The translations under genes and the position numbers were made by a program. A DNA stretch of 64,000 nucleotides, taken from assembly GCF_029266855.1 (NCBI RefSeq), contig NZ_JAQSWB010000005.1:186001-250000 (forward strand), read 5' to 3'. This DNA is from Fluviicola sp. GTDB taxonomy: Bacteria > Bacteroidota > Bacteroidia > Flavobacteriales_D > Crocinitomicaceae. Positions 5,814-20,436 of this stretch are shown here, piece by piece. Position 1 is the first letter of the stretch. Each line of letters starts with the position of its first letter. Under the pieces are notes generated by a model. It was not told the DNA's origin. It searched no databases and worked only from the letters and a program-made list of their open reading frames with translations.

Positions 5814-6689
5814 CTATTTCTTGCGGAAAATATAGATCTGAGAGCTTGACAATCCCTCTCTGGCTTTCTGATTGGACAAAAATCCAATTCTCATCGCTTT
5901 CAGCATTGAACCACCTTTATATTTTTCACTCAACATCGAAACATAATAACTGTCAAATTTCATTGGAAGCATTTTTTCAAATCTCAACCCTTTAGATTCA
6001 ACTAATGGAATAATTGATTTCGGAGAGAAGTGATATAAATGTCGTGGAACATCATATGCCGCCCAATACTCTTTATAATATTGTGCATCGAAAGAAGTGT
6101 AATTTGGAACTGCAATAATTAAAACACCATCCTGGTTTACTAAAGAAACTATTTTCTCAAGATCAACCCGCAGATCATAAACGTGCTCTAAAACATGCCA
6201 CATGGAAACAACATCAAAAGTCTCCTCCAAGCTATGAAGTAAACTAAGATCCTTTAACTCAATTCTATTTTCCGCCAAAGCCACTTTACGGGCATCTTCA
6301 TCGGGTTCCAAACCTAAAACAACATATCCGGATTCTTTAGCCTTTGCTAAAAAATGTCCTGTTCCGGCACCAATATCCAAGAGTTTCCTTCCAGGAGTTA
6401 ATTCCTTTAGTAAAGACATCTTTTTCTTTAAAGTATAAGATCGTACCCAATTGTAAACCTTATTGACTAAGCCTTTCTTCGTGGAACTATGAGACACATA
6501 ATCTTCCGATTTATAGTATTCACCGATGCGATCCGGGGTTGGTCTTGGATTCGTAAAAAGCAAATTACATGAATTGCAAAGTTCGAGTTTGAAATCCTCC
6601 TTTGAAAGAAAGTGATCTTTAACTGTCAAATACGTACTAAATGATTCTGCTCCACAAGCGGGGCAAGCTGATTGATTTACATGTTCCAC
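5814..6689 (-). CDS. Class I SAM-dependent methyltransferase with N-terminal zinc ribbon
   Basis: 291 residues. The N-terminus has two CxxC pairs (CPAC at 9-12, CNSC around 36-39), as in the Methyltransf_23-type enzymes that act on sugars, quinones or cell-surface lipids. The SAM-binding glycine motif 'LLDIGAGTGHFL' and 'FDVVSMWHVLEHV' (motif post I/II) follow. The substrate is not predictable. The start codon is GTG, only six bases after the mnmG stop, and there is no upstream in-frame alternative because the mnmG TAG lies in the same frame. Both the stop and the GTG fall inside a parS-like 16-mer. Co-transcription with mnmG is likely. Confidence 0.88.
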   Translation of the reverse strand: MEHVNQSACPACGAESFSTYLTVKDHFLSKEDFKLELCNSCNLLFTNPRPTPDRIGEYYKSEDYVSHSSTKKGLVNKVYNWVRSYTLKKKMSLLKELTPGRKLLDIGAGTGHFLAKAKESGYVVLGLEPDEDARKVALAENRIELKDLSLLHSLEETFDVVSMWHVLEHVYDLRVDLEKIVSLVNQDGVLIIAVPNYTSFDAQYYKEYWAAYDVPRHLYHFSPKSIIPLVESKGLRFEKMLPMKFDSYYVSMLSEKYKGGSMLKAMRIGFLSNQKAREGLSSSQIYIFRKK

Positions 6690-6697
6690 GTGAAACT
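6682..6697. promoter_or_regulatory. parS-like ParB-binding site 1
   Basis: TGTTCCACGTGAAACT matches the widely conserved bacterial parS sequence TGTTCCACGTGAAACA at 15 of 16 positions. It covers the mnmG stop codon and the GTG start of the methyltransferase. Confidence 0.88.
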
Positions 6698-8567
6698 ACC
6701 TTCCTAAATGAATTAATAAAACTGAAATATCGCTAGGGGAAACTCCACTAACTCTTGATGCCTGACCAATAGTCACAGGCTTAATCTTACTCAACTTATC
6801 CCTTGCTTCCAGGGATATTGACTTCATAGAGTCATAATCAGTAGAAGGTGGAATAACAACAGACTCCAGACGCGACAACTTTAAAGCCACTTCCTCCTCA
6901 CGGGCAATATAGCCTTCGTACTTTAACAGTATTTCAGCCTGCTCAACTGCATCCGAATGTTCCACGTGTAACTTCTCTGCTAAATCACGCACCTGCTCAC
7001 TCATTTGAAGCACGTGCTCCATCGTAATATGTGGTCTTGTAATAACCGATGCTAACTTGATTTGTTGTGAAAGCGGAGAACTTCCAACACCTTCCAAAAT
7101 TGGGTTTGCGATTTCCGGAGTTACACCTTCCTTCCTTAAAACTCCAATCAATTCCTTAGCAGCATTTACTTTTCTATTCACACGATCCAAAGCTTCCTGA
7201 TCTTGCAACCCTAATTCAAAAGCAAGTGGTGTTAAACGAACGTCTGCATTATCCTGACGCAGCAAAATACGGTATTCTGCCCGCGAAGTAAACATACGGT
7301 ATGGCTCCTGTGTTCCCTTTGTTATCAAATCATCAATCAAAACGCCAATATAAGCGTCGCTTCTGGATAGAATAAACGGAGTTTTCTCCTGGACTTTCAA
7401 AGCCGCATTGATTCCAGCCATCAGTCCCTGACATGCCGCCTCCTCATACCCGGTTGTTCCATTGATCTGTCCTGCGAAATACAAACCTTCAATCAACTTA
7501 GTTTCCAACGTATGTTTTAGTTGGGTAGGAGGGAAGTAATCGTACTCAATGGCATAACCTGGTCGAAACATCTTTGCTGCTTCAAATCCGGGGATAGAAC
7601 GAAGCGCTTTTAACTGAACGTCCTCCGGCAAACTTGTTGAGAAACCATTCACATAGATCTCAACTGTCTTCCAGCCTTCCGGTTCAACAAAGATTTGGTG
7701 TCTGTCTCTATCTGCAAAGCGATTGATTTTATCTTCAATACTCGGACAATATCTCGGTCCGCTGCTTTTTATAGCACCATTAAACATAGGTGAGCGATCA
7801 AAACCTTCACGTAACAAATCGTGAGTCAGGGTAGAGGTATAAGTTATATGACAAGCACGCTGAATTTTCAAAGCTTCCGTATTTCCATATGAAAACTTGT
7901 TTGGGTTCTCGTCTCCTTCCTGAATCTCCATTTTGGAATAATCCAAAGAACGTCCATCAACCCGCGGAGGAGTTCCCGTCTTCATTCTTCCCGACTCAAA
8001 GCCTAAAGCCACCAAGTCTTCCGTGATCCCGGTTGCACCTTTCTCACCAATTCTTCCTCCACCAAATTGCTTTTCACCCAAATGAATCAAACCATTCAGA
8101 AAAGTTCCATTCGTAAGAACAACCGCTTTTCCGTATACAGGAATCCCCATTGAAGTGCGAACACCAACAACAGTTCCATTCTCAACGATCAATCCATTGC
8201 ACATGTCCTGCCAAAAATCAACATTCGGATTTTGCTCCAAGAGCAAGCGCCATTCTTCTGCAAATTTCATCCGATCATTCTGTGTGCGCGGCGACCACAT
8301 TGCCGGACCTTTTGAACGGTTCAACATGCGAAACTGAATCGCTGACAAATCCGAAACAATTCCGGATCCACCGCCAAGCGCGTCAATTTCACGAACAATT
8401 TGCCCTTTTGCCACACCACCCATCGCCGGGTTGCAACTCATTTGAGCAATGGTATTCATATTCATTGTAATCAACAATACCGAACTCCCCAGTTTTCCAG
8501 CCGCATTCGCAGCCTCACAACCGGCATGTCCGCCACCCACTACAATGACATCATAATTCTTCAACAT
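6696..8567 (-). CDS. mnmG: tRNA uridine-5-carboxymethylaminomethyl(34) synthesis enzyme
   Basis: MnmG (GidA) with MnmE installs the cmnm5 group on U34 of tRNAs reading NNA/NNG codons. 623 residues, the usual length. The FAD dinucleotide-binding motif [12 protein letters not shown] is at residues 10-21. The family signatures '[14 protein letters not shown]' and '[21 protein letters not shown]' are present, as is the C-terminal helical domain '[29 protein letters not shown]'. In many bacteria gidA lies next to oriC; here it is bracketed by parS-like sites at 6682, 8577 and 8624 and contains another at 6958. A TAATTTTG -7 box on the minus strand at 8598-8591 is its likely promoter. Confidence 0.98.
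6958..6973. promoter_or_regulatory. parS-like site 2, inside mnmG
   Basis: TGTTCCACGTGTAACT matches 14 of 16 positions of TGTTCCACGTGAAACA. It lies within the mnmG coding sequence, 276 bases from site 1. It is the weakest of the four. Confidence 0.65.
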
Positions 8568-8576
8568 ACTATTTCA

Positions 8577-8592
8577 TGTTTCACGTGGAACA
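8577..8592. promoter_or_regulatory. parS site 3, perfect match
   Basis: TGTTTCACGTGGAACA is the exact reverse complement of the B. subtilis-type parS TGTTCCACGTGAAACA (16/16). It lies between ybeY and mnmG and covers the expected mnmG transcription start (the -7 box is at 8591-8598 on the minus strand). Confidence 0.93.
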
Positions 8593-8598
8593 AAATTA
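8591..8598 (-). promoter_or_regulatory. mnmG promoter -7 box (TAATTTTG)
   Basis: Exact TAnnTTTG match on the minus strand, 23 bases before the mnmG ATG. It overlaps the last two bases of the perfect parS site. Confidence 0.6.
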
Positions 8599-8610
8599 CT
8601 ACCATCAAAC

Positions 8611-9051
8611 TTAAGCCTTCAAATGTTCCACGTGAAACTTACGCAACATTAACATTTCATTCTCTTTGGATCTCATCAATTCCTCGTCCTTTTCAGACTT
8701 ATCCTTGTATCCACATAAGTGCAACAACCCATGAACACACACCCGGTGTAATTCATCCTGGAAAAGCGAATCAAACTCATTCGAATTGTCTTCAACCCGA
8801 TCTACACTAATAAACAGATCCCCCGACACCAAATTGTCCTCGGTATAATCAAACGTAATTATGTCCGTGTAATAATCATGTTGCAGGTATTCCTTATTCA
8901 TTTGAAGCAAGTGTTCATCAGAACAAAAGATGATTGAAACATCTCCCAAACTTTTATTCTCCACCTCACAAACATTTGAATACCATGCAAACAAAAATTC
9001 CGGATTAACACCCGGAACTTCTTCTATATCTTCAAAGAAAACTTCTACCAT
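8611..9051 (-). CDS. ybeY: Endoribonuclease YbeY, 16S rRNA maturation factor
   Basis: 146 residues. YbeY is a zinc-dependent RNase acting in 3' maturation and quality control of 16S rRNA. The metal motif reads VHGLLHLCGYKDK: the first two histidines of H-x3-H-x5-H are present, but the third position is Asp (the run ends YKD instead of YDH). I recall this as common in Bacteroidota YbeY, so it is probably lineage-typical and not a loss. The start overlaps the stop of the ATPase gene by one base (TAATG). The last codons (encoding FHVEH) form the parS-like site at 8624-8639. Confidence 0.93.
   Translation of the reverse strand: MVEVFFEDIEEVPGVNPEFLFAWYSNVCEVENKSLGDVSIIFCSDEHLLQMNKEYLQHDYYTDIITFDYTEDNLVSGDLFISVDRVEDNSNEFDSLFQDELHRVCVHGLLHLCGYKDKSEKDEELMRSKENEMLMLRKFHVEHLKA
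8624..8639. promoter_or_regulatory. parS-like site 4, in the 3' end of ybeY
   Basis: TGTTCCACGTGAAACT matches parS at 15 of 16 positions. It lies 31 bases from the perfect site 3, inside the last codons of ybeY. Confidence 0.88.
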
Positions 9052-9464
9052 TACTTATTAAAAAAAACACTTACTTCATTCCCACTATCATTAAACATAA
9101 CCTCGTCGGCCAGGTTTCTCATCAGGAAAATCCCACGTCCATTCTCCTTCTCAATATTCTCAGGAGCCGTGGGGTCGGGGAGATGAAGATGGTCAAAACC
9201 GGATCCCTCATCACAAATTCTAAAACCGAAACCATCATCAGTTTCATAAAACTCCAACTTCACTTCCTTAGCAACATGCATTGAGTTACCATGAATAATC
9301 GCATTGTTCACCGCCTCTGTCACCGCTATCAAAACATTACCGTACATGTCTTCATCTATACCAACAGTCTGACAAGCTTTGTCGATCATAGATTCAACAA
9401 CAGGTAAATTATTCAATTCTGAAGGAATGCTTAACGAATCAATTAAAGTAAACCCTTCTTTCAT
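9051..9464 (-). CDS. RsbW/SpoIIAB-like ATP-binding protein (HATPase_c)
   Basis: 137 residues with a stand-alone GHKL ATPase fold: N-box 'EAVNNAIIHGNS', G1 box 'DEGSGFD' and G2 region 'NGRGIFLMRNLADEV'. This is the arrangement of the anti-sigma/serine kinases of the RsbW type. No cognate anti-anti-sigma (STAS) gene is nearby, so the partner is unknown. It lies 26 bases downstream of the DUF4175 gene and overlaps ybeY by one base, so all three are probably transcribed together. Confidence 0.87.
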   Translation of the reverse strand: MKEGFTLIDSLSIPSELNNLPVVESMIDKACQTVGIDEDMYGNVLIAVTEAVNNAIIHGNSMHVAKEVKLEFYETDDGFGFRICDEGSGFDHLHLPDPTAPENIEKENGRGIFLMRNLADEVMFNDSGNEVSVFFNK

Positions 9465-9490: not shown

Positions 9491-12400
9491 CTAGAACTGA
9501 TTGAAGTATTTACCCGCCTTGTCTTTATAGTACTTTGTCAATAAAGGATCCACAGCACGCAACAACTCAACCTGTCCAAGCTTGTTACGCTTATACTCAT
9601 CAAACCGAATAAGGTTACCATAATTCACATTTTTTCCGGAAGTCGATTCTCTTTTTTCCTCAAACCCTCTTTCCTTCAATGCTTTCTCACTTTCCAATAA
9701 GCGAGTTAAAATATCTTGTTGACGACGGATCATCTCAGGTGAGAATTGTTTATTGATTAACTGTTTCTCTTGTTCCTCTAATTCCTTGATCAATGGATTC
9801 AATTGATTTCCCTTTCCTTGTCCATCCTTGTTCATCTCATTGCGCAATTGTTCCAGTCGCTGACGGATTGCCGTCTGCTGAGCAGCCATCTTAGCAACTT
9901 CCTTATTCCCTAAGCCAGGCATTCCCTGACTCCCTTGTCCGGGCTTATCGCCAGGTTGCTTGCCTCCGGGATTTGGTCCTTTCTTCATTTGTTCGAGCTG
10001 CTTCTTTAGCATCTCCTTCATGTCTCCAGGCGACATTTGTCCGTCACTCGGCTTTTTTCCCGCACCTCCCGGATTATCGCAAGAGCCCGAACCCGGCTTT
10101 TGCTGTTGTGCCTGTTGTTGCATTGATTGCAAACTTTCATTTAACATCAGTGCCAAGTTGTTATAGCTGGTCATTACATATTGCTGATGCTGCAGCATTC
10201 CTCTTCGGTTATGCTCCCCAATCTCATTTGTGATCAATCCGAAATTGGAACGAATGTCTTTTAATTCTTTATCTATAAAAGGTGCAATCTTTGTTTGACG
10301 TTTTGCTAAAGCCATCAAACTATCCTCGATCAATTTATTGTCATCTATAATACTCCGCTGCTTTCTTCCCAGTTTATTATAATATGGATCCATATCCTTT
10401 ACTTTTCCGAAGCGGTTCATTACATATTCCTGGTCAAAACTTAAAGACATCAAATTTTCCAGCAATAACCGAATCAAACTCATGTCTTCTTCATCCTGCT
10501 TCTTGTTGGCCGCTTCCTGCTGATTGTTCAACTGGTCAGAAAGTTCCTTCATTTTCTCAGCAGCCTTTTTCTGATTTTCTCCGGCTTTCCCTTTTTTACC
10601 CTGATCAAGTTTGCTCTTCGCGTCATTCATTTCATCAGAAATTTCCTGCTGCTCCTGGTCAAAAGAATCCATCGGCATCGGACGCTCCAATTCTTCATTC
10701 AACTTTTGAAGTTCTTTCATGTCTTTCTTCAGATCATCAAACTTCTTGTTCAACTCGTCCTGTTTCTTTGATGCGTCTTTTTCAGACACCTTTTCATCCT
10801 TGATATCCTTCTCCAATTTTTCCTGCTCCTCGGCCAACTGATCCAATTCCTTTTCCAAATCGTCAATCTTTTCATTCACCTGCAAACGCTTCAACATTTC
10901 CATCGTGCGATCCAATTGCTTTTTCATCTCATCACTGGAAGCATCCAATTTCTCCGTTTCATTCTTCATTTGAAGCTGATCATTCTTCTCCATCAACTTT
11001 TCAAGATCATCCAACAGTTTCTTAAGCTCGTCATCCATCACTTCCTTCAGCAATTCTTCAATCATTTCCTGCTGCTTCAAAAGTTCTTCGTCCTGTTCAC
11101 TTAATTTGTTCTTTTCCTCGTTACTCGCGTTCAACTTTTCTTTGATCGCCTCCAATTCATCTTGTAAAGATTGTTGTTGCTGTTTCAAAGACTGAACCTG
11201 TTCCATGTTTTTAAAATCACTTTTCGATTTATTCATCAATGATTTTTGCAGCTTGTTTACATCCTTTTGAAATTGCTCAGTCTTCTTATAAACATCTGTC
11301 AACGCATTCTTCAATTCCTTTTGAACCTCGTCACGCTTCTCATTCAAATTGGTCAAAGAAGGTAATTCATACACGAAGTTTTGAGAGGAAGTGCTCTTGG
11401 ATCCGTTCACACCATCATTATCAAATACCTGAAAGTGATAAGAGATCTTATCCTCCACATCGATATTGTCCCTGCTGAAATCTACAGCAAATGAAAACTT
11501 ATCATTGGTAGAAGCGTACTTATCAACCAACATTTTTCGCTTCAGTTCCGGTCCGTTCTTCTTTTGAATAGTATACATGAAATAAAGCGCGGTCAATCCG
11601 TAATCATCCGAGATCAATCCTTCAAATAACCTTACAGAAGTTTTAATCGAATCAACACTCTCGGAAACCAAAATCGACGGATAAGCATCCTTGATGACAT
11701 GCACCTGGATATTGGAAGTATCCAAAACATTCAAATCCTTATTCTTCAAAACGAAATTTACTGAACCATCTTCTTTGTATACAGATTGAAAGTTTCCATT
11801 TCCGCTATCAAATTGCTTTGAAAACCCTTTACTGAAAACTTTAAACCAACTTACATTTCGTGCCTCCACATTCCAATCGACCTTTGTTCCCTCCGGAATA
11901 TCCAAATCAGCAATGTTCAATAAGCGCTCATCCTTTCTCTTCAGGTACTTCGGATAATGCAGGCTTGCGACAACTTTTCCCAAAGAAGAATTCCCAAGAA
12001 TTTTTACCTGAAACTCCTTCGATTCATACCCTTCGCTTTCAAAGTGAAAAACAAAATCAGATTTCAAATTATCAATAGGGAAGGCCAGACGATTTTTGCG
12101 AACCTTATTCATCTTGTAGCGTCCGCGATTGGAAACTAAAAAAACATGTTCCGGCACATATATTCCGGTAATATCAACTTGAACATTATACGAGCTTCCT
12201 TCGCGTAATTTATCTCTCTTGTCTACCAGGTTGAAATCGAACGGTGCCTCCTGTGCCTGCGAGAAATTCACAACATTGGAAGAGCCTTTGGTGATCCACC
12301 CGGGAGCGAAAATTGCAATCGTTCCGAAAACAAGAATAATCGGGATAACATATTTCAAATACTTTTTTGATTCCTCATAGCGAACCGCTTCCTCGAATTT

Positions 12401-12826
12401 TACTGCCAACAGTTCATTCGACTTTTGTGAAACACTGGCACGGATCAACTCAAAGCTTCGATCGTCTTCATTGACAATTTCATTCAATTGAAGAGTATTT
12501 AATAAACGATCTGATACATTCGGAAAAAAGGAACCGATAATTCGTGCGGCCTGTGTCCTGTTAATCCGTCTTCCAAACGAATACAATCTCATAATCGGGA
12601 GAGCAAAATAACGAACAAGCAAATACCCGTTCATTCCAAGGAACAAAATCAATAATACAAGTCGAACCGAACTAGGGAAACGACCAAAATATTCCAGGAC
12701 ACTCACTGTTAACCAGGAGGCCAATAAAAAGCCAACTACGATTAAAACACCCTTCAAGATCTCACTCTTGTAATACTTGCGTATGAAGGCATCTATCTGT
12801 TCAATTAAGCGATCAAAAGCTGACAT
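9491..12826 (-). CDS. DUF4175 family membrane protein with long coiled coil
   Basis: 1111 residues. Three hydrophobic segments lie near the N-terminus (about 23-47, 53-78 and 155-177). They are followed by a beta-rich extracytoplasmic stretch and then a very long Lys/Glu/Gln-rich coiled coil (about 500-780). A Gly/Pro/Gln-rich part with 'PGSGSCDNPGGAGKKPSDGQ' and a conserved C-terminal domain ending 'LRAVDPLLTKYYKDKAGKYF' complete it. This matches the DUF4175 proteins of Bacteroidota, whose role is unknown. Its long helical region suggests a scaffold across the periplasm or under the envelope (inference). It is the first gene of the run DUF4175-ATPase-ybeY-mnmG-methyltransferase, divergent from gltX. 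Confidence 0.88.
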   Translation of the reverse strand: MSAFDRLIEQIDAFIRKYYKSEILKGVLIVVGFLLASWLTVSVLEYFGRFPSSVRLVLLILFLGMNGYLLVRYFALPIMRLYSFGRRINRTQAARIIGSFFPNVSDRLLNTLQLNEIVNEDDRSFELIRASVSQKSNELLAVKFEEAVRYEESKKYLKYVIPIILVFGTIAIFAPGWITKGSSNVVNFSQAQEAPFDFNLVDKRDKLREGSSYNVQVDITGIYVPEHVFLVSNRGRYKMNKVRKNRLAFPIDNLKSDFVFHFESEGYESKEFQVKILGNSSLGKVVASLHYPKYLKRKDERLLNIADLDIPEGTKVDWNVEARNVSWFKVFSKGFSKQFDSGNGNFQSVYKEDGSVNFVLKNKDLNVLDTSNIQVHVIKDAYPSILVSESVDSIKTSVRLFEGLISDDYGLTALYFMYTIQKKNGPELKRKMLVDKYASTNDKFSFAVDFSRDNIDVEDKISYHFQVFDNDGVNGSKSTSSQNFVYELPSLTNLNEKRDEVQKELKNALTDVYKKTEQFQKDVNKLQKSLMNKSKSDFKNMEQVQSLKQQQQSLQDELEAIKEKLNASNEEKNKLSEQDEELLKQQEMIEELLKEVMDDELKKLLDDLEKLMEKNDQLQMKNETEKLDASSDEMKKQLDRTMEMLKRLQVNEKIDDLEKELDQLAEEQEKLEKDIKDEKVSEKDASKKQDELNKKFDDLKKDMKELQKLNEELERPMPMDSFDQEQQEISDEMNDAKSKLDQGKKGKAGENQKKAAEKMKELSDQLNNQQEAANKKQDEEDMSLIRLLLENLMSLSFDQEYVMNRFGKVKDMDPYYNKLGRKQRSIIDDNKLIEDSLMALAKRQTKIAPFIDKELKDIRSNFGLITNEIGEHNRRGMLQHQQYVMTSYNNLALMLNESLQSMQQQAQQQKPGSGSCDNPGGAGKKPSDGQMSPGDMKEMLKKQLEQMKKGPNPGGKQPGDKPGQGSQGMPGLGNKEVAKMAAQQTAIRQRLEQLRNEMNKDGQGKGNQLNPLIKELEEQEKQLINKQFSPEMIRRQQDILTRLLESEKALKERGFEEKRESTSGKNVNYGNLIRFDEYKRNKLGQVELLRAVDPLLTKYYKDKAGKYFNQF

Positions 12827-13033: not shown

Positions 13034-13041
13034 TACTTTTG
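13034..13041 (+). promoter_or_regulatory. gltX promoter -7 box (TACTTTTG)
   Basis: Exact TAnnTTTG match 16 bases before the ATG at 13057. It overlaps the first codons of the longer TTG-started frame (13039), which is therefore rejected as the start. Confidence 0.7.
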
Positions 13042-13056
13042 CTGAAAAAAATAAGC

Positions 13057-14568
13057 ATGAGTTCGTCAGATGTACGTGTTCGCTTCGCACCATCCCCAAC
13101 TGGACCTTTACACATGGGAGGTGTTCGAACAGCACTTTATAATTACCTTTTCGCAAAACACAATAATGGAACTTTCATTATTCGAATAGAAGACACCGAT
13201 CAGACACGTTTTGTTCCTGGCGCCCAGGATTATATTATGGACTCGTTAAAGTGGTGCGGAATCATTCCGGATGAAGGTCCGGGAATAGGTGGAGAGTATG
13301 GTCCTTATGTTCAAAGTGAGCGAAAAGAAATGTATCATCCTTATGCAGTAGGCCTGGTCGAAAATGACAAAGCTTATTATGCTTTCGATACTCCTGAAGA
13401 ATTAGAAGCTGTTCGTGAACAGGCAAAACAAATGGGGATGCCTAATTGGCAATACAACAGTGTTACGCGAACAAACCTGAAAAACTCTTTAACACTTCCG
13501 GCTGATGAAGTTAAACGTCGCCTGGAAGCAGGAGAACCTTATGTAATCCGCTTCAAAATGCCTAGAAATGAGGATGTTAGATTTGAAGATATTGTCAGAG
13601 GGTGGGTTGTTGTAAACACTAACAACCTGGATGACAAGGTTTTATTCAAAAGCGATGGAATGCCTACTTATCATTTGGCAAACATTGTTGACGATCACTT
13701 GATGAAGATTTCGCATGTAATCCGCGGAGAAGAGTGGCTTCCTTCCGCTCCGATGCACGTGATGCTTTACCAGGCTTTTGGATGGGATGCACCACAATTC
13801 GCACATTTGCCTTTGCTTTTGAGACCGGACGGAAATGGTAAACTCTCAAAAAGAGATGGCGATCGTCTAGGTTTCCCGGTATTTCCGGCAAACTGGACAA
13901 CAGCCGAGGGTGAGTTGTATTCGGGATATCGCGAAAACGGGTACTTTCCCGGAGCTTTTATCAATATGCTTGCATTCTTGGGTTGGAATCCCGGAACAAC
14001 ACAGGAAATTTTTTCAATGGATGAATTGATCCAGGCATTTACGCTGGATAGAGTAGGGAAAGCAGGAGCAAAATTCGATCCTGAAAAAACGAAATGGTTC
14101 CAACAGCAATATCTGAAAAACACTTCTGAAAAAGAATTGGCTCGTTTGCTTAAAGAACAATTCAGCTTAACGGATTCTGAAGAACGTCTCGAAGCATTTT
14201 GCAAACTTATGAAAGAGCGCGCGACCTTTGTTAAAGATATGATGACAGAAGGTTCCTACCTGATCAATAAACCGGGAACGTACGATGAACAAACTGTTTC
14301 AAAGAAATGGAAAGAAGATTCTGCTGCTTTGATGACAGAATGGAAAAACCAATTAAACAGTCTTTCTTCCTTTGATCCTGCAACAATTGAAACTGCTTTT
14401 AAATCATTCCTTGAGCAGAAATCATTGGGAATCGGAGCGGTACTTCCATTATTCAGACTATTACTGACAGGAGCAGGTACAGGACCTTCTATGTTTGAAA
14501 TAGCGGCTTACCTGGGTAAAGAAGAATGCTTGAATAGAATGAACGACGGATTGGCAAAACTGGGATGA
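13057..14568 (+). CDS. gltX: Glutamyl-tRNA synthetase
   Basis: Charges tRNA-Glu. 503 residues. The class I 'HIGH' motif reads PLHMGG at residues 17-22 within 'RFAPSPTGPLHMGGVRTALYNYL', and the 'KMSKS' motif reads KLSKR at 262-266. The GluRS signature 'RIEDTDQTRFV' is also present. Bacteroidota enzymes of this length are usually discriminating GluRS, although glutaminylation via amidotransferase cannot be judged here. The start at 13057 is set by the promoter box at 13034. The gene overlaps folB by four bases (ATGA) and has a striking palindrome upstream. Confidence 0.97.
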   Translation: MSSSDVRVRFAPSPTGPLHMGGVRTALYNYLFAKHNNGTFIIRIEDTDQTRFVPGAQDYIMDSLKWCGIIPDEGPGIGGEYGPYVQSERKEMYHPYAVGLVENDKAYYAFDTPEELEAVREQAKQMGMPNWQYNSVTRTNLKNSLTLPADEVKRRLEAGEPYVIRFKMPRNEDVRFEDIVRGWVVVNTNNLDDKVLFKSDGMPTYHLANIVDDHLMKISHVIRGEEWLPSAPMHVMLYQAFGWDAPQFAHLPLLLRPDGNGKLSKRDGDRLGFPVFPANWTTAEGELYSGYRENGYFPGAFINMLAFLGWNPGTTQEIFSMDELIQAFTLDRVGKAGAKFDPEKTKWFQQQYLKNTSEKELARLLKEQFSLTDSEERLEAFCKLMKERATFVKDMMTEGSYLINKPGTYDEQTVSKKWKEDSAALMTEWKNQLNSLSSFDPATIETAFKSFLEQKSLGIGAVLPLFRLLLTGAGTGPSMFEIAAYLGKEECLNRMNDGLAKLG

Positions 14569-14927
14569 AACATACCATTGAAGTAAACGGAATTAAACTC
14601 TATGCATTTCATGGCTGCCTGGAGGAAGAAGGAAAGATTGGTGGAAACTACATTGTAGACGTTCATATGAATACCAACTTTCAGGAAGCAGCCTTAAGTG
14701 ATGAATTAAGTCAGACGATTGATTATGTACATATCAATGCAATTGTTGCACAGGAAATGGCTATTCGGTCCAAACTTATCGAGCATGCAGGTCAGCGCAT
14801 TGTTTCACGTATTGAACAAGAAATCAAGGGCTTAGTCGGTTTACGGGTAAAAGTCACAAAAATCTGTCCTCCTATCAACGGAGATGTAGATAATGTAGCA
14901 ATTATTATTGAGACCGGAACTTGGTAG
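14565..14927 (+). CDS. folB: Dihydroneopterin aldolase
   Basis: 120 residues. FolB converts 7,8-dihydroneopterin to 6-hydroxymethyl-dihydropterin in folate synthesis. 'GIKLYAFHGCLEEEGKIGGNYIVDV' is the usual N-terminal signature (the family motif is 'FHGVxxxExxxGqxF'). The later 'TIDYVHINAIV', 'LIEHAGQRIVSRI' and 'VRVKVTKICPPINGDVDNVAI' stretches give the T-fold core, including the catalytic lysine in VKVTK. The ATG overlaps the gltX stop (ATGA), so the two genes are translationally coupled. Confidence 0.93.
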   Translation: MKHTIEVNGIKLYAFHGCLEEEGKIGGNYIVDVHMNTNFQEAALSDELSQTIDYVHINAIVAQEMAIRSKLIEHAGQRIVSRIEQEIKGLVGLRVKVTKICPPINGDVDNVAIIIETGTW

Positions 14928-14945
14928 TTTTATAAGAAAAATTAC

Positions 14946-14953
14946 TATTTTTG
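14946..14953 (+). promoter_or_regulatory. tRNA-Cys promoter -7 box (TATTTTTG)
   Basis: Exact TAnnTTTG match 12 bases before the first base of the tRNA. Confidence 0.6.
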
Positions 14954-14965
14954 CCACCACAATAC

Positions 14966-15036
14966 GGTCTCGTGGCCGAGCGGTTAGGCAACGGTCTGCA
15001 AAACCGTCTACTCCGGTTCGAATCCGGACGAGACCT
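14966..15036 (+). tRNA. tRNA-Cys(GCA)
   Basis: The acceptor stem GGTCTCG pairs perfectly with CGAGACC. The anticodon arm ACGGT-CTGCAAA-ACCGT gives anticodon GCA, and the T arm reads CCGGTTCGAATCCGG. The discriminator base is T (U73), the cysteine identity base. CCA is not encoded. A terminator hairpin follows directly. Confidence 0.96.
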
Positions 15037-15037
15037 C

Positions 15038-15067
15038 AAAAAGCTCCACATAATGTGGAGCTTTTTT
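15038..15067 (+). terminator. Rho-independent terminator after tRNA-Cys
   Basis: Arms AGCTCCACAT and ATGTGGAGCT (15042-15062) are perfect complements, followed by a T-run (TTTTTT). It begins within ten bases of the tRNA end. Confidence 0.9.
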
Positions 15068-15092
15068 GTTTTATTCTTATTCCAAATATGTG

Positions 15093-15136
15093 CTACTCCG
15101 GTGTGTTCCAATAGCTTTCGCGAACCGGACGAGACC
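15093..15136 (+). repeat. Broken second copy of the tRNA-Cys 3' half
   Basis: CTACTCCGGT (15093-15102) and CGAACCGGACGAGACC (15121-15136) repeat the variable-loop/T-arm and T-arm/acceptor parts of the intact tRNA-Cys 57-130 bases upstream. They are separated by an 18-base insertion and lack one T in the T loop. No 5' half is present, so this cannot be a working tRNA. The rest of the 15037-15261 spacer holds the terminator and nothing else I recognise. Confidence 0.7.
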
Positions 15137-15261
15137 ACTCAAAGTTCATCCCCTTTGCGTTCTTATACCATGCATAACGTCATTTCTGACTATGCTTCGT
15201 CTTCAAAAGCCTTGCTTTTTCTTCTTTGCGGTGAAAATATACGGCAGCACGTTTATAAAAA

Positions 15262-16920
15262 TCAATTTATGATCTGAACCGGTTTTGTTACCACAGTTCC
15301 ATCACTGTAAGTCAGCGACAAGTAATAAACTCCTGCTTCCAATTCAGTGTTTTTCAAGTCAAATCCCATTTCTGTTATTACTTCATTGATCTGTATTTCC
15401 TTTCCGGACAAATCTCTTAAATTCAATTGTTTAACAGCTCCACTCGGAACATAAACAGAAAAAGAGCCGGTACTCGGATTCGGATAAACAGAAAATGCGT
15501 TCTTATCATAAGCCTCCTGAATTCCTAACTGATCTATCAGGGAATTCGCTGCAGCAAACACATTCGGCAAAGGTCCTATTTTTTCGGAAAGTGGGAAAAG
15601 AACTCCTTCAACCTGTGGTTTTCCCGTATTTACCAGTAAATCCTTTATTTCATTCTTCGTCAGGGTGTTTCCCGTAAAATTCCTGTAAAGCGACTGTATC
15701 AATGTGACTGCTCCCACAACAATCGGGGAAGCACCTGAAGTTCCTCCAAAATTATCAGAATAGGATCGGTTTGGTCCCTCAGCTGCATAAGCAGATCCAT
15801 AACCCGTAGTAACTACTCCTTCTCCGTTTCCCTGGAGATCAATCCGGCTTCCGTGATTTGAAAACCACAACCTTGATCTTGGCACATCGTCTATACCAAC
15901 TGATCCGGCACCAACCATAATTGCCTCCGACCAGTTTTCTTCGAGAAAAGGATAATGACCGAAATTGTCAACACCAAACATCGGATCATCCAGATTCTTA
16001 TTTCCATTTCCGGCTGCTTCCACTACGATCAATCCATTTCCGGAGATCAGTTGAATAGCATCATAATACGGTTCGTACCATTCTACCGGCGCATATCCTT
16101 CCTCAGGAGTTCCCGGAAAAGCCAGGGTTTGCTGTTCTATTAACACCACATCACCTTCCTCCAGCTGACTCAAAGTAACGATCAATGCTTCCTCCAGATA
16201 ATACATATCCTCATAATAAGCTCCTGCAAAATACAATTGGCTTTCATATGCAATTCCTGTTGTACCAATTCCATCGTTGAGAGATGCTATTTCCCCCAGT
16301 ACGGCCGTTCCATGGTTTGGTCCAAATCCCGGATCTTGTGGTTGCGGCCCGATAACAATCACCTCAGGAAGATCTTCGTGATCCGGATTAAAGTAATATT
16401 CAATATCACAGACCTTTACACCTGAACCAAAAACAGAATAAGCATTCCAAAACTCCTGCACATGAATTCCGGGATCCTGGTCAAACAAATAAACCTGGGA
16501 TGGCTGTAAATTCGGAACAAGCGGTGTGCTCAATTTAGGGGGAATGCTCACATACTTTACGGAAGCAAGTGTTTGCAATTTATTTTGTACGGCTTTAAGG
16601 TCCTCTCCCGGATTCAGGTGAAATTCAAAAAGGGTTTTCGGATCCGAAAGATTCTTTCTAAGACGCTGTTTTGCTTTTAAGTAGTATGACTCCAATAATT
16701 CCGGTGAAATGGAGTAAAAAGGTTCCCAGTGCCCATACTGATCCAAATCGGATGCTTCGGGATATAAACCTTCTGCAGAAAATAATTTACCGGTTTGTGC
16801 ATGCACATTTAATCCGTCCTGAAACTTTACATGTAAAATTCTTTTCTGTCCATCCTGGGCAGATGCTATTATAAAGAATGACAATGAGAATACGGAAAGT
16901 AATACAAGTTTCATAAGCAT
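15262..16920 (-). CDS. Secreted subtilisin-like (S8) protease with T9SS sorting domain
   Basis: 552 residues. A signal peptide (MLMKLVLLSVFSLSFFIIASAQ) and a pro-region of about 130 residues precede the S8 catalytic domain. The triad is D172 (VCDIEYY), H203 (NHGTAVLGEIA) and S395 (GGTSGASPIV). The last 75 residues begin 'FSVYPNPSTGSFSVYV' and end 'VTKPVQIIN', a type A T9SS C-terminal domain, so the protein should cross the outer membrane and be anchored or released. The second Met (residue 3) could equally be the start. The gene stands alone, convergent to the tRNA. Confidence 0.93.
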   Translation of the reverse strand: MLMKLVLLSVFSLSFFIIASAQDGQKRILHVKFQDGLNVHAQTGKLFSAEGLYPEASDLDQYGHWEPFYSISPELLESYYLKAKQRLRKNLSDPKTLFEFHLNPGEDLKAVQNKLQTLASVKYVSIPPKLSTPLVPNLQPSQVYLFDQDPGIHVQEFWNAYSVFGSGVKVCDIEYYFNPDHEDLPEVIVIGPQPQDPGFGPNHGTAVLGEIASLNDGIGTTGIAYESQLYFAGAYYEDMYYLEEALIVTLSQLEEGDVVLIEQQTLAFPGTPEEGYAPVEWYEPYYDAIQLISGNGLIVVEAAGNGNKNLDDPMFGVDNFGHYPFLEENWSEAIMVGAGSVGIDDVPRSRLWFSNHGSRIDLQGNGEGVVTTGYGSAYAAEGPNRSYSDNFGGTSGASPIVVGAVTLIQSLYRNFTGNTLTKNEIKDLLVNTGKPQVEGVLFPLSEKIGPLPNVFAAANSLIDQLGIQEAYDKNAFSVYPNPSTGSFSVYVPSGAVKQLNLRDLSGKEIQINEVITEMGFDLKNTELEAGVYYLSLTYSDGTVVTKPVQIIN

Positions 16921-17034
16921 GTTATTTTAACCAATGCTAATGAATAATTCTATAACATTTCAAATTAAAATGTCTACGCAACAATCTATTGAGGGAAGGG
17001 TATTTAAAGAAAAGCGAATTGTTAATCCTGTGGA

Positions 17035-17796
17035 TTAAAGCATCTTGATTCTATTGGTCAACTCATCTCTGTATGAGCCACCGATTGGAATCAGCTTACG
17101 GTCATTTTCCAATTGCAAATTCGGGAAATCGATTGATGCAATTTTATCCAAACGGACAATAAACGAACGGTGAACACGAATGAACTGATCGGTACCCAAT
17201 TTTGTTTCGATATCCTTCATAGTGGAATGAATCGTATATCGTGTTTCATTGGTGTTGATAACCACATAATCTTTCAAAGCTTCAATGAAATAAATATCAT
17301 TCATATTTAATTTCACCAATTTGCTGTTTGACTTTACAAAAATGAACTCATTCAATGAATCCTTTTCTTTGTTTTCAACAAGGGAATAAAGCATATCTCG
17401 CTCACGTTCCACTTCCTGTTCTTTTTTATGTTTGTAAAGAGCCATTTCGATCGAAGTGTGCAGATCGATTTCTTTAAAAGGTTTTAAGATATAACCGTAA
17501 GGTTCGGTAACTTTTGCCTTTGACAAAGTTGCTTCGTCGGCATAAGCGGTTAAATAAATAACCGGTATTGAATAGCGGTTTCGAACAATTTCAGCTGTTT
17601 CGATTCCATTCATTTCCCCCTTCAGCATGATGTCCATTAAGACAATATCCGGCTGATTTGCCTCTAATAATTCGAGTGCTTTTTCACCCGACGGAGCTGC
17701 GCCAACTACGTGGTATCCAAGCTTTTTCAAACTGGATTGGATATCCTTCGAAACAATGAATTCATCTTCTACAACTAATACATTAGCCTTCGTCAT
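17035..17796 (-). CDS. LytTR-type response regulator
   Basis: 253 residues. The receiver domain has the acidic pair E10/D11, the phosphoacceptor D55 (VLMDIML), T83 in 'VIYLTAYAD' and K104-type 'YILKPF'. A short coiled linker (about 125-145) leads to a LytTR DNA-binding domain ('FIFVKSNSKLVKLNMNDIYFIEALKDYVVINT...FIRVHRSFIV'). Such regulators usually pair with a membrane histidine kinase of the LytS type; none is adjacent. Its promoter is the minus-strand TACTTTTG box at 17815. Confidence 0.95.
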   Translation of the reverse strand: MTKANVLVVEDEFIVSKDIQSSLKKLGYHVVGAAPSGEKALELLEANQPDIVLMDIMLKGEMNGIETAEIVRNRYSIPVIYLTAYADEATLSKAKVTEPYGYILKPFKEIDLHTSIEMALYKHKKEQEVERERDMLYSLVENKEKDSLNEFIFVKSNSKLVKLNMNDIYFIEALKDYVVINTNETRYTIHSTMKDIETKLGTDQFIRVHRSFIVRLDKIASIDFPNLQLENDRKLIPIGGSYRDELTNRIKML

Positions 17797-17814
17797 TCTT
17801 TACAGCTTTGGATT

Positions 17815-17822
17815 CAAAAGTA
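17815..17822 (-). promoter_or_regulatory. Promoter -7 box of the LytTR regulator gene (TACTTTTG)
   Basis: Exact TAnnTTTG match on the minus strand, 18 bases before the ATG at 17796. Confidence 0.65.
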
Positions 17823-18431
17823 ATTAAATTTGAGATTTAATCACCATGTGTTTTAATATTTCGTAGACACTTAACTTTCGTTCGTCTATTCGAATATAAA
17901 CTTTAACTATGAATTGTGCAAATTAGTCTCAAAAAGGAATACAATCTAATAATAGAATAAAAAGATTTTATATAAAGAAATTTACTATATCTATTAGGGG
18001 TGTTAATTCGTGTAAAACTTTCGATCGAAAGATTCGTTTTTTAAACTTATGAGTTATTCCTTCCTACTTATTGACAATGATTCGGGTTCTTTTAGAGTTC
18101 TGTTACAAGAGTTTATGCAGATATGAACAAATTGAGCAGAATTGTTAATGTGGAAAAAATAGTTTCTTTTAACCCTGTTAATATGTGTTTAACATGATGA
18201 TAAAAGAGCGATAACTCTGTCAAACTTTATAGTGCTTTATCCGAAAACTTGTACATATGTCTAAATAGTTCGAATATCCTAGAAATAGTTATGGATACTT
18301 TCTAACAGATATTGACAATTTAATCCTTGATCGTGTGTAAAACTCCTTTTTGGAATCCTATATAAACCAGGCCTTTCGGAGAAAGCTTTTTTTCTTATTG
18401 TTAATTGATTGTTCCATTTGTTGATAAGCCG
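17823..18431. other. Long AT-rich gene-free spacer; origin-like features weak
   Basis: No credible ORF on either strand. The spacer is AT-rich and holds three one-mismatch matches to the DnaA box complement TGTGNATAA, all on the plus strand (18149-18157, 18184-18192, 18334-18342). It also holds a perfect 14-bp palindrome, CTTTCGATCGAAAG (18018-18031). An imperfect hairpin followed by seven T lies at about 18371-18394. It is the longest unexplained spacer in the window. It could be an origin, a long leader of rpiB, or decayed DNA; I cannot choose from sequence alone. Confidence 0.5.
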
Positions 18432-18439
18432 TAACTTTG
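18432..18439 (+). promoter_or_regulatory. rpiB promoter -7 box (TAACTTTG)
   Basis: Exact TAnnTTTG match 17 bases before the ATG at 18457. It falls inside the longer frame starting at 18409, which is therefore rejected. Confidence 0.7.
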
Positions 18440-18456
18440 AGAAAACTTTCATTATT

Positions 18457-18891
18457 ATGTCTCAAATCATTCCTATAGGAGCAGATCACGCAGGATTTCA
18501 ATTGAAATCAGAAGTTATTAAACATTTAGAATCATTGGGTTACCAGGTTAAGGATTACGGATGTTATAGTGAAGACAGTATCGATTATGCAGATTTTGGA
18601 CATCCGGTTGCGGATCACGTGGAGTCAAACGAGGGTTCAAAAGGAATTGTAATCTGCGGAAGCGGAAATGGTATCAACATGACTGTTAATAAACACCAGG
18701 GAATCCGCGGAGCACTTTGCTGGAAAAAAGAAATAGCTCAATTGGCCCGCGAACACAACGATGCAAACATCCTTACTTTACCCGCCCGCTTTGTTTCAGT
18801 AGAAGAAGCACTTGAAATGGTGGATATTTTCTGGAACACTCCATTCGAAGGAGGAAGACACCAGAAGCGGGTTGAGAAAATTCCTTTATAA
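18457..18891 (+). CDS. rpiB: Ribose-5-phosphate isomerase B
   Basis: 144 residues. RpiB interconverts ribose 5-phosphate and ribulose 5-phosphate in the pentose phosphate pathway. 'IPIGADHAGFQLKSEV' at the N-terminus and the catalytic cysteine C67 in 'GIVICGSGNGINMTVNK' match the RpiB/LacAB family; 'HNDANILTLPARFVS' is also characteristic. The start is placed after a promoter box at 18432. It stands alone with its own promoter, downstream of a long AT-rich spacer. Confidence 0.95.
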   Translation: MSQIIPIGADHAGFQLKSEVIKHLESLGYQVKDYGCYSEDSIDYADFGHPVADHVESNEGSKGIVICGSGNGINMTVNKHQGIRGALCWKKEIAQLAREHNDANILTLPARFVSVEEALEMVDIFWNTPFEGGRHQKRVEKIPL

Positions 18892-18913
18892 TAATGTAAA
18901 ATTAATAATGGAG

Positions 18914-18931
18914 TCCCGATAATTATCGGGA
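18914..18931. repeat. Perfect 18-bp palindrome TCCCGATAATTATCGGGA
   Basis: A fully symmetric 18-mer between rpiB and the M28 peptidase gene, 22 bases after the rpiB stop. There is no T-run, so it is not a classical terminator. Its form resembles short dispersed palindromes seen in Bacteroidota intergenic regions (recollection). Confidence 0.75.
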
Positions 18932-18981
18932 TGAAAAGATTGAAAACAATTCTACCATTTTACATTTTCAATTTAAAACTT

Positions 18982-20436
18982 ATGAAGCACCTTTTCAGTA
19001 TTTTATTTTCAGGCGCTGTGTGCGTTTGTTTCTCACAACAGCTTGATGCAGCAAAAAAATACAGCTCCTATATTAATGAAGAGGATCTGAAAAAGAATCT
19101 CACCATTTTAGCTTCCGATGAATATCTTGGAAGGGAAACAGGAAAACAAGGTCAGAAAATGACAGCTGAGTTCTTAACGGCCTATTTTAAGAAATTGGGC
19201 TGCGCCTTCGCTCCGGGAATGACAGCTTATGAACAGCATTTTGAAGTCATTGAAAACACCCCGGGCGGAACATTGTCACTGACCAATGTTTCACTGAACT
19301 TCAAAACCGACTTTATCTATTACGCCTGCAAGTCTAAAACAACCATAGAAAACTTACCGGTTTATAGTGTTGAACAATTACCGCTTGTTGAAGAAAAGCC
19401 ATGTTATGTTATTCATAAATTGCAAAGCCTGGAGGTTCGCAAAGAGGTTTCTGTTTTAAAGAAGGAATTGCCGAAACATGTTAAAGGAATCATTCTTGTT
19501 TCTAAAGACTATGATACCTTATATGAATACATGGAACATTATGTAACTACAAAAAGTATGGTTCTGGCTGATGAGAAGAAGAAAGAAGAATTTCCGATCC
19601 TGTTTATAAAAGAATCGTCTCTGGCAAGCCTGAAGAAGAAGTCCAATGGATTTTTAAGCGGGAAAGGGAAGGTTCTCAAAACTTCCAAACCGGTTTTTAC
19701 CTTAAATGCACAATTGAACACACAGGAAGAAAAACTGACAAGCTCCAATGTTCTGGCTTATATAGAAGGAAGCGATCCGGCTCTTTCAAAAGAGGTGGTG
19801 ATCATTACAGCTCATTACGATCATATCGGAGTAGATCACGGAGTGGTGTATAACGGAGCAGATGATGATGGAACCGGAACAGTTGCGTTGCTGGAACTTG
19901 CGGAAGCTTTTATGGAAGCAAAAAAGAATGGTCAGGGACCAAAGCGTTCGATTTTGATCATGCCTGTTTCAGGTGAAGAAAAAGGATTGCTCGGGTCGGA
20001 TTATTATTCTTCACATCCGGTTATTCCTCTTGAGAATACGGTAGCAGACTTAAACATTGATATGATCGGCCGAAACGATATCGGTCATGAAAAAGACACG
20101 AACTACATTTATATCATTGGTTCAAACATGCTAAGTAATGATCTTCATGAGGCGAATGAACGGATGAATGCAAAATACACGCAATTGAAATTGGATTATA
20201 AGTTCAACAGCTTATCCGATCCAAATCAGTTTTACTATCGCTCGGACCATTACAATTTTGCGAAGCATAATATTCCCGTTATATTTTACTTCAGCGGAGT
20301 TCATGAAGACTATCACCAGCCAACGGATGATGTGGAAAAAATACTATTCCCCAAAACAGAGAAAGTTGCCCGCTTGGTTTTCTTTACTGCCTGGGAAATT
20401 GCAGATGCTTCGAAGCGAATTACTTTGAACCGGTAA
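18982..20436 (+). CDS. M28-family zinc metallopeptidase, exported
   Basis: 484 residues from the ATG at 18982, which gives a clean signal peptide (MKHLFSILFSGAVCVCFSQQ); the longer frame begins inside an 18-bp palindrome. The M28 zinc ligands are visible in order: H in 'ITAHYDHIG', D in 'NGADDDGTG', the EE pair in 'SGEEKGLLGS', D in 'NIDMIGR' and H in 'YRSDHYNFAKH'. These peptidases are aminopeptidases, here probably periplasmic or outer-membrane associated. A protease-associated-type insert seems to fill residues 110-250. The 3' end overlaps the convergent thioredoxin-like gene by 17 bases. Confidence 0.93.
   Translation: MKHLFSILFSGAVCVCFSQQLDAAKKYSSYINEEDLKKNLTILASDEYLGRETGKQGQKMTAEFLTAYFKKLGCAFAPGMTAYEQHFEVIENTPGGTLSLTNVSLNFKTDFIYYACKSKTTIENLPVYSVEQLPLVEEKPCYVIHKLQSLEVRKEVSVLKKELPKHVKGIILVSKDYDTLYEYMEHYVTTKSMVLADEKKKEEFPILFIKESSLASLKKKSNGFLSGKGKVLKTSKPVFTLNAQLNTQEEKLTSSNVLAYIEGSDPALSKEVVIITAHYDHIGVDHGVVYNGADDDGTGTVALLELAEAFMEAKKNGQGPKRSILIMPVSGEEKGLLGSDYYSSHPVIPLENTVADLNIDMIGRNDIGHEKDTNYIYIIGSNMLSNDLHEANERMNAKYTQLKLDYKFNSLSDPNQFYYRSDHYNFAKHNIPVIFYFSGVHEDYHQPTDDVEKILFPKTEKVARLVFFTAWEIADASKRITLNR

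Follow-up and report, generated by a model that had tools for sequence, protein, structure and literature searches.

A parS site cluster at mnmG, the very probable chromosomal centromere of a Fluviicola species

The 64,000-nucleotide stretch analysed here (the window, C5:186001-250000) belongs to the 273,139-base contig C5 of a Fluviicola sp. genome (G000, the home genome; 4,304,048 bases in 14 contigs), and it carries a compact group of four sites resembling parS, the 16-mer that Livny et al. reportedly defined in 2007 as the chromosomal consensus of ParABS segregation systems. The sites lie in and around mnmG, between the genes for a methyltransferase and YbeY (Table 1; labels G, L and C denote genomes, named loci or stretches, and contigs, and positions without a prefix refer to the window). 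The sequence-only reading had listed four such 16-mers with 16, 15, 15 and 14 matches to the consensus, and a rescan returned the same coordinates and scores, with the core CACGTG unbroken in all four. A counterpart of the 6682 site also occurs at an equal offset 3' of mnmG in L021.

Table 1. Sites, genes and candidate origin features in the window
Feature	Position	Strand	Remark
parS site, 16/16	8577..8592	-	intergenic, ~10 nt 5' of mnmG start
parS-like site, 15/16	6682..6697	-	spans mnmG stop codon and predicted GTG start of methyltransferase
parS-like site, 15/16	8624..8639	+	3' end of ybeY reading frame; 47 bp from 8577 site
parS-like site, 14/16	6958..6973	-	within mnmG codons
SAM-dependent methyltransferase (Methyltransf_23)	5814..6689	-	frequent downstream neighbour
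mnmG (gidA)	6696..8567	-	TIGR00136
ybeY, rRNA maturation RNase	8611..9051	-	frequent upstream neighbour
RsbW-like ATPase	9051..9464	-	
DUF4175 protein	9491..12826	-	
gltX	13039..14568	+	
Candidate oriC	17797..18456	.	660-bp AT-rich divergent non-coding gap, LytTR regulator to rpiB (start 18457); holds skew minimum
DnaA-box-like TTTTCCACA	18149..18157	-	inside gap; aligned G070 position = TTATCCACA

The earlier claim that such matches exceed chance also held. With up to three mismatches allowed, the window contains eight strand-matches, which are the four near-palindromic sites each matched on both strands, whereas 100 shuffles of the window gave a mean of 0.76 matches and a maximum of 3, none reaching eight. 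Across the whole home genome, the 8577 site is the only exact match to TGTTNCACGTGNAACA, and of the four one-mismatch sites three belong to the cluster; four of the five sites with at most one mismatch thus fall within 2 kb, and the genome-wide scatter that would have spoken against a centromere was not seen. At up to two mismatches, 32 sites were found against 14 with a backwards control, so that chance explains much of this two-mismatch tail. Outside the cluster, the home genome has a single site one mismatch away from the degenerate pattern, TGTTCCACGTGCCACA at C3:172042-172057, which shows two mismatches to strict parS forms and is possibly a chance occurrence. For the cluster itself, a chance origin is ruled out by the shuffles, the genome scan and the conservation of the sites.

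This conservation was examined in 60 genomes of the class of the home genome (apparently Bacteroidia, judging from its named MnmG relatives), 58 of which have an mnmG match. Exact parS occurs in 40 of the 60, with no genome positive in the backwards control, and in 53 of the 58 a parS is found no more than 1.2 kb from mnmG, comprising 35 genomes with an exact site, 15 at one mismatch and three at two mismatches (G009, G035 and G051). The one-mismatch step yielded 42 sites against 10 for the backwards control in the 20 genomes searched. Of the two genomes with no mnmG match, G012 has sites flanked by the methyltransferase gene and a fragment of mnmG located at the end of a contig; G052 yielded no site within one mismatch.

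A finer picture emerges from 80 named mnmG loci, the best of at least 592 candidates, which are related and not independent. Sites with at most one mismatch occur within 500 bases upstream or 200 bases downstream of mnmG in 66 of them, and two-mismatch sites in the same zones add three further loci (L026, L080 and L095). Site density at up to one mismatch reaches 2.56 per kb in the 500 bases upstream and 3.06 per kb in the 200 bases downstream, compared with 0.013 per kb elsewhere and 0.0067 per kb inside mnmG. No flanking site was found in the remaining 11 of the 80 loci (L048, L050, L052, L053, L075, L084, L087, L088, L091, L094 and L097), eight of which are titled Saprospiraceae, Lewinellaceae or Phaeodactylibacter. 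The genomes of ten of these loci (all except L052) were scanned, and eight hold, away from the mnmG locus, two or more sites of one mismatch at most inside a 400-bp span; together the ten hold 20 sites against 9 in the control. A recognisable ybeY lies within about 5 kb of four of these eight groups (L195, L198, L201 and L202), and genes of the threonine synthase family appear near six and of the M1 peptidase family near five; the families were named from L200 and L195.

Two features of site arrangement at the named loci may be recorded separately. Among 42 neighbouring pairs of upstream sites, 22 are 37-55 bp apart, a spacing that could reflect helical phasing. In Flavobacterium sp. MC2016-06 (L041), the 1.2 kb upstream of mnmG contain 12 parS-like sites with up to two mismatches; ACATG replaces ACGTG in five of them, which are spaced 116-118 bp apart.

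The intragenic 6958 site provides a separate view of selection. It is present at the same position, with the same 276-bp spacing, in three of four same-genus genomes, its last base differing in one. Across four genomes of the genus it forms part of a 16-nt identical run, the fifth longest in mnmG, and its own window is among the 37 of 1855 15-nt mnmG windows that are fully identical, even though 42-45% of the codons for identical residues differ in pairwise comparison. An amino-acid constraint was rejected as the cause, as the peptide varies between KLHVEH and RLHVEH and reads QLTLEH in G078, where the peptide has changed and the DNA site has been lost. This pattern suggests that the site is maintained by selection on the DNA.

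The proximity of the cluster to an origin was assessed by GC skew. Over the whole of C5, cumulative skew reaches its minimum at C5:203907 (17907 in the window) and rises afterwards; the minimum of this 273-kb contig is therefore 9.3 kb from the 8577 site, not far away, in agreement with the comparison proposed in the sequence-only reading. It falls in a gap whose AT content, 74% in 300-base windows, is the highest in C5:186-215 kb, and which is 81% identical in both G070 and G080, the two genomes of the genus compared; in each of these, the skew minimum of the 8-kb stretch taken falls in the homologous gap. The gap holds DnaA-box-like sequences without a cluster of strict boxes. Since the strict box TTATCCACA had no match near it in the home genome, its designation as candidate oriC is based on skew, AT content and conservation. 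Skew coverage of the home genome comprises all of C5, part of C1 and one to three samples each of C2, C3, C4, C6, C7, C8, C10 and C14, so that a second minimum may exist on the other contigs, C9, C11, C12 and C13. An origin at dnaA was considered and rejected: the single Bac_DnaA match (C1:101926-102411) lies where the sampled skew is positive. As a side observation in the region 13039-20436, the block containing the LytTR regulator gene, the AT-rich gap and rpiB has, with respect to gltX, the opposite orientation to that in G070 and G080, and this inversion surrounds the candidate origin.

Closed genomes of the same genus allow the skew to be followed around the chromosome. In G080, one sign change of the sampled skew, minus to plus, coincides with parS (1.746 Mb) and the other with parB (4.081 Mb); all ten samples of the plus arm (1.765-4.00 Mb) are positive and eight of ten of the minus arm negative, with contrary values at 0.5 and 1.4 Mb. 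In G078, plus skew gives way to minus somewhere in 1.85-2.4 Mb, an interval with near-zero values that also holds parB (1.92 Mb), and the return to plus falls in 3.6-4.0 Mb, at least 0.35 Mb from parS (4.35 Mb); one sample, at 1.5 Mb, is contrary. With the origin placed by skew, the parS cluster appears to be origin-proximal.

A protein suited to these sites is predicted from the same genome. As the sequence-only reading had noted, no parB lies in the window: the sole TIGR00180 match of the home genome is at C1:520542-521081, and a gene for a ParA-type ATPase (AAA_31, CbiA) adjoins it in L016. The predicted ParB has 304 aa with ParB_N and HTH_ParB domains, and in phmmer it matched solved ParB-family proteins (E 2e-51) and Spo0J (E 7.6e-50), as well as Noc chains. 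At the specificity positions it has R173, H179, K184 and G201 in Caulobacter numbering, taken from PMC7383237 and mapped by eye from motif spacing, there being no Caulobacter sequence in the alignment. The arginine and glycine are conserved in all 20 aligned ParBs, namely the home protein and 19 hand-picked relatives, exceptions among them. According to the available part of the same paper, these two residues form the parS-reading pair, and Noc has Q173 and R201 instead; the Noc-type residues were looked for in the home ParB and not found. The home genome thus appears to encode one chromosomal-type ParB of the parS-reading kind. ParB above cut-off was found in 58 of the 60 class genomes. A side case is G030, with no TIGR00180 ParB match and yet four contigs that together hold 12 exact parS sites; several of its sites (C24:13202-13810 and C40:53115-54174; L153 and L134) show a 99-bp period near contig ends, and one exact parS lies directly upstream of mnmG.

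The parAB genes themselves occupy a different part of the chromosome. Sampled every 50 kb, C1 skew is positive in 12 of 12 stretches up to 570 kb and negative in eight of eight at 600-970 kb, as well as in one at 1.1 Mb, and contiguous coverage of 500-670 kb places the maximum at 556,545, with a broad top. Because a skew maximum marks the expected terminus, parB, about 36 kb from it, would lie close to the terminus. Expressed as a fraction of half the chromosome, the distance from parS to parB is 0.98 in G070, 0.93 in G078 and 0.99 in G080, so that all three closed genomes of the genus have parB near the antipode; the value of 0.15 in G035 indicates that this placement is not general. Computed from rounded lengths, the fraction is about 0.87 in G084 and 0.57 in G089; the unclosed genomes G031 and G095 give about 0.5 and 0.77. 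Among the 56 genomes having both genes, most of them assembled in many contigs, mnmG and ParB share a contig only in G031 (about 731 kb apart) and G035 (about 300 kb). The terminus-sited parAB of the genus may represent a single chance event that was inherited.

Taken together, the cluster is very probably the chromosomal centromere (parS) of this Fluviicola sp. The earlier reading of an origin-proximal, ParB-binding centromere is supported at the level of sequence by the clustering of the sites, the nearby skew minimum and the parS-reading ParB predicted from the genome. In the proposed mechanism, the four sites would serve as loading points for ParB dimers, which would close into clamps with CTP and spread by sliding along the flanking DNA; such behaviour is established for ParB-family proteins of other species. 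Once the nearby origin has fired, ParA would soon draw the sister origin regions apart. Given that no Smc was detected, ParB would probably work through ParA alone or with another condensin. As ParA and ParB act in trans, parAB would be free to lie near the terminus.

Several observations weigh against this interpretation. A par operon in the origin domain is a conserved feature of chromosomal ParABS according to the available text of a review (PMC7022226), and in the home genome parAB lies outside that domain. Canonical Smc (TIGR02168) was not over cut-off in the home genome, where all 22 candidates were scored and ScpA, ScpB and MukB/MksB were not searched; in the class it exceeded cut-off in at least 12 of the 60 genomes, nine candidates per genome having been scored. 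Skew is weak in G078, where its agreement with parS is coarse, and irregular in the closed G035. Two of the ten scanned genomes of site-less loci have no site with at most one mismatch genome-wide. The two-mismatch step, which contributes three of the 53 class genomes with parS near mnmG, was adopted following initial results and is the least secure. Finally, five of the 58 class genomes lack parS near mnmG: G005 and G014 carry their sites at a methyltransferase homologue, with mnmG on a different contig; in G034 a site is at ybeY; in G025 the sites are 43-45 kb from mnmG; and in G054 they are on another contig than mnmG. In several of these exceptions parS has been kept by its old neighbours, ybeY or the methyltransferase gene.

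The same exceptions bear on the possibility that the sites are operators of an mnmG/methyltransferase operon, bound by ParB or another reader of CACGTG, with segregation not their main role. The upstream site about 10 nt before the mnmG start and the presence of flanking sites at most of the 80 named loci would fit such operators, but sites also occur 3' of the mnmG stop and inside the gene, groups lie elsewhere in eight of the ten scanned genomes of site-less loci (with ybeY nearby in four of the eight), and G005, G014 and G034 keep their sites at the methyltransferase homologue or ybeY. The sites thus follow the place more than mnmG, and a primary operator role seems highly unlikely; a secondary effect on mnmG expression may nevertheless exist.

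Even less probable is that the sites no longer function and are left over from an ancestral neighbourhood of the origin. In many other phyla mnmG adjoins parAB and oriC, and the location of parB and dnaA on another contig than the sites in the home genome would suit decay of such an arrangement; against this, 53 of the 58 class genomes have retained the 16-mer at this location, and the intragenic site persists in its identical run despite the codon divergence around it. A role at the RNA level, with the palindromes forming hairpins or terminators around mnmG, would fit the perfect inverted repeats that many variants form in DNA that is transcribed or intergenic, but the would-be loop CACGTG is nearly constant and, on the mnmG-sense strand, the non-pairing C..A variant outnumbers the pairable T..G one upstream (21 vs 12) and downstream (16 vs 5), leaving this idea scarcely tenable.

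A bolder extension of the centromere reading can also be formulated. Class-wide, the centromere would be fixed at an ancestral ybeY-mnmG-methyltransferase place, the par operon would be free to move and most members would lack Smc; within the genus, the par operon would sit at the terminus, its dosage and duplication tied to the end of replication, with segregation carried out by ParA together with an unknown condensin or none. This combined scenario is rather doubtful at present. To our knowledge, chromosome segregation in Bacteroidota has been little studied, and the locus offers a sequence-defined centromere position for most of the class genomes examined as well as an origin marker independent of dnaA, which in the home genome is on another contig. 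It may further serve as a test case for the role of ParB-parS where Smc is absent, in a genus with centromere and par operon at opposite ends of the chromosome map.

Part of this picture has precedents. According to the available text of a Hi-C study (PMC10197239), parS clusters lie at the origins of twelve gut species and the origin is not always at dnaA; in two gut Bacteroidetes described there, Bacteroides caecimuris and Muribaculum intestinale, parS and skew place the origin as in the present case, and no known condensin was found. The main text of that study contains no occurrence of mnmG or gidA, and no tie between parS and mnmG in Bacteroidota was found in the open PMC literature among the matches listed and in the portions available. 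The general picture of parS at the origin, dnaA apart and no condensin is therefore already published, whereas the gene-level anchoring to ybeY-mnmG-methyltransferase, not found in print within the literature so covered, is added by the present analysis. Compared with the sites of Noc (NBS), which serve nucleoid occlusion, the proteins belong to a related family, and the home ParB differs from Noc at both residues of the reading pair. Compared with chromosomal ParABS, the Fluviicola system shares the same 16-mer, its clustering, its position near the skew minimum and a parS-reading ParB in the genome; it differs in that parAB is unlinked and near the skew maximum, canonical Smc was not detected by the TIGR02168 model and three of the four sites overlap reading frames or start or stop codons. 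An ordinary parS centromere by sequence, in a less usual arrangement, is thus a well-supported description of the locus.

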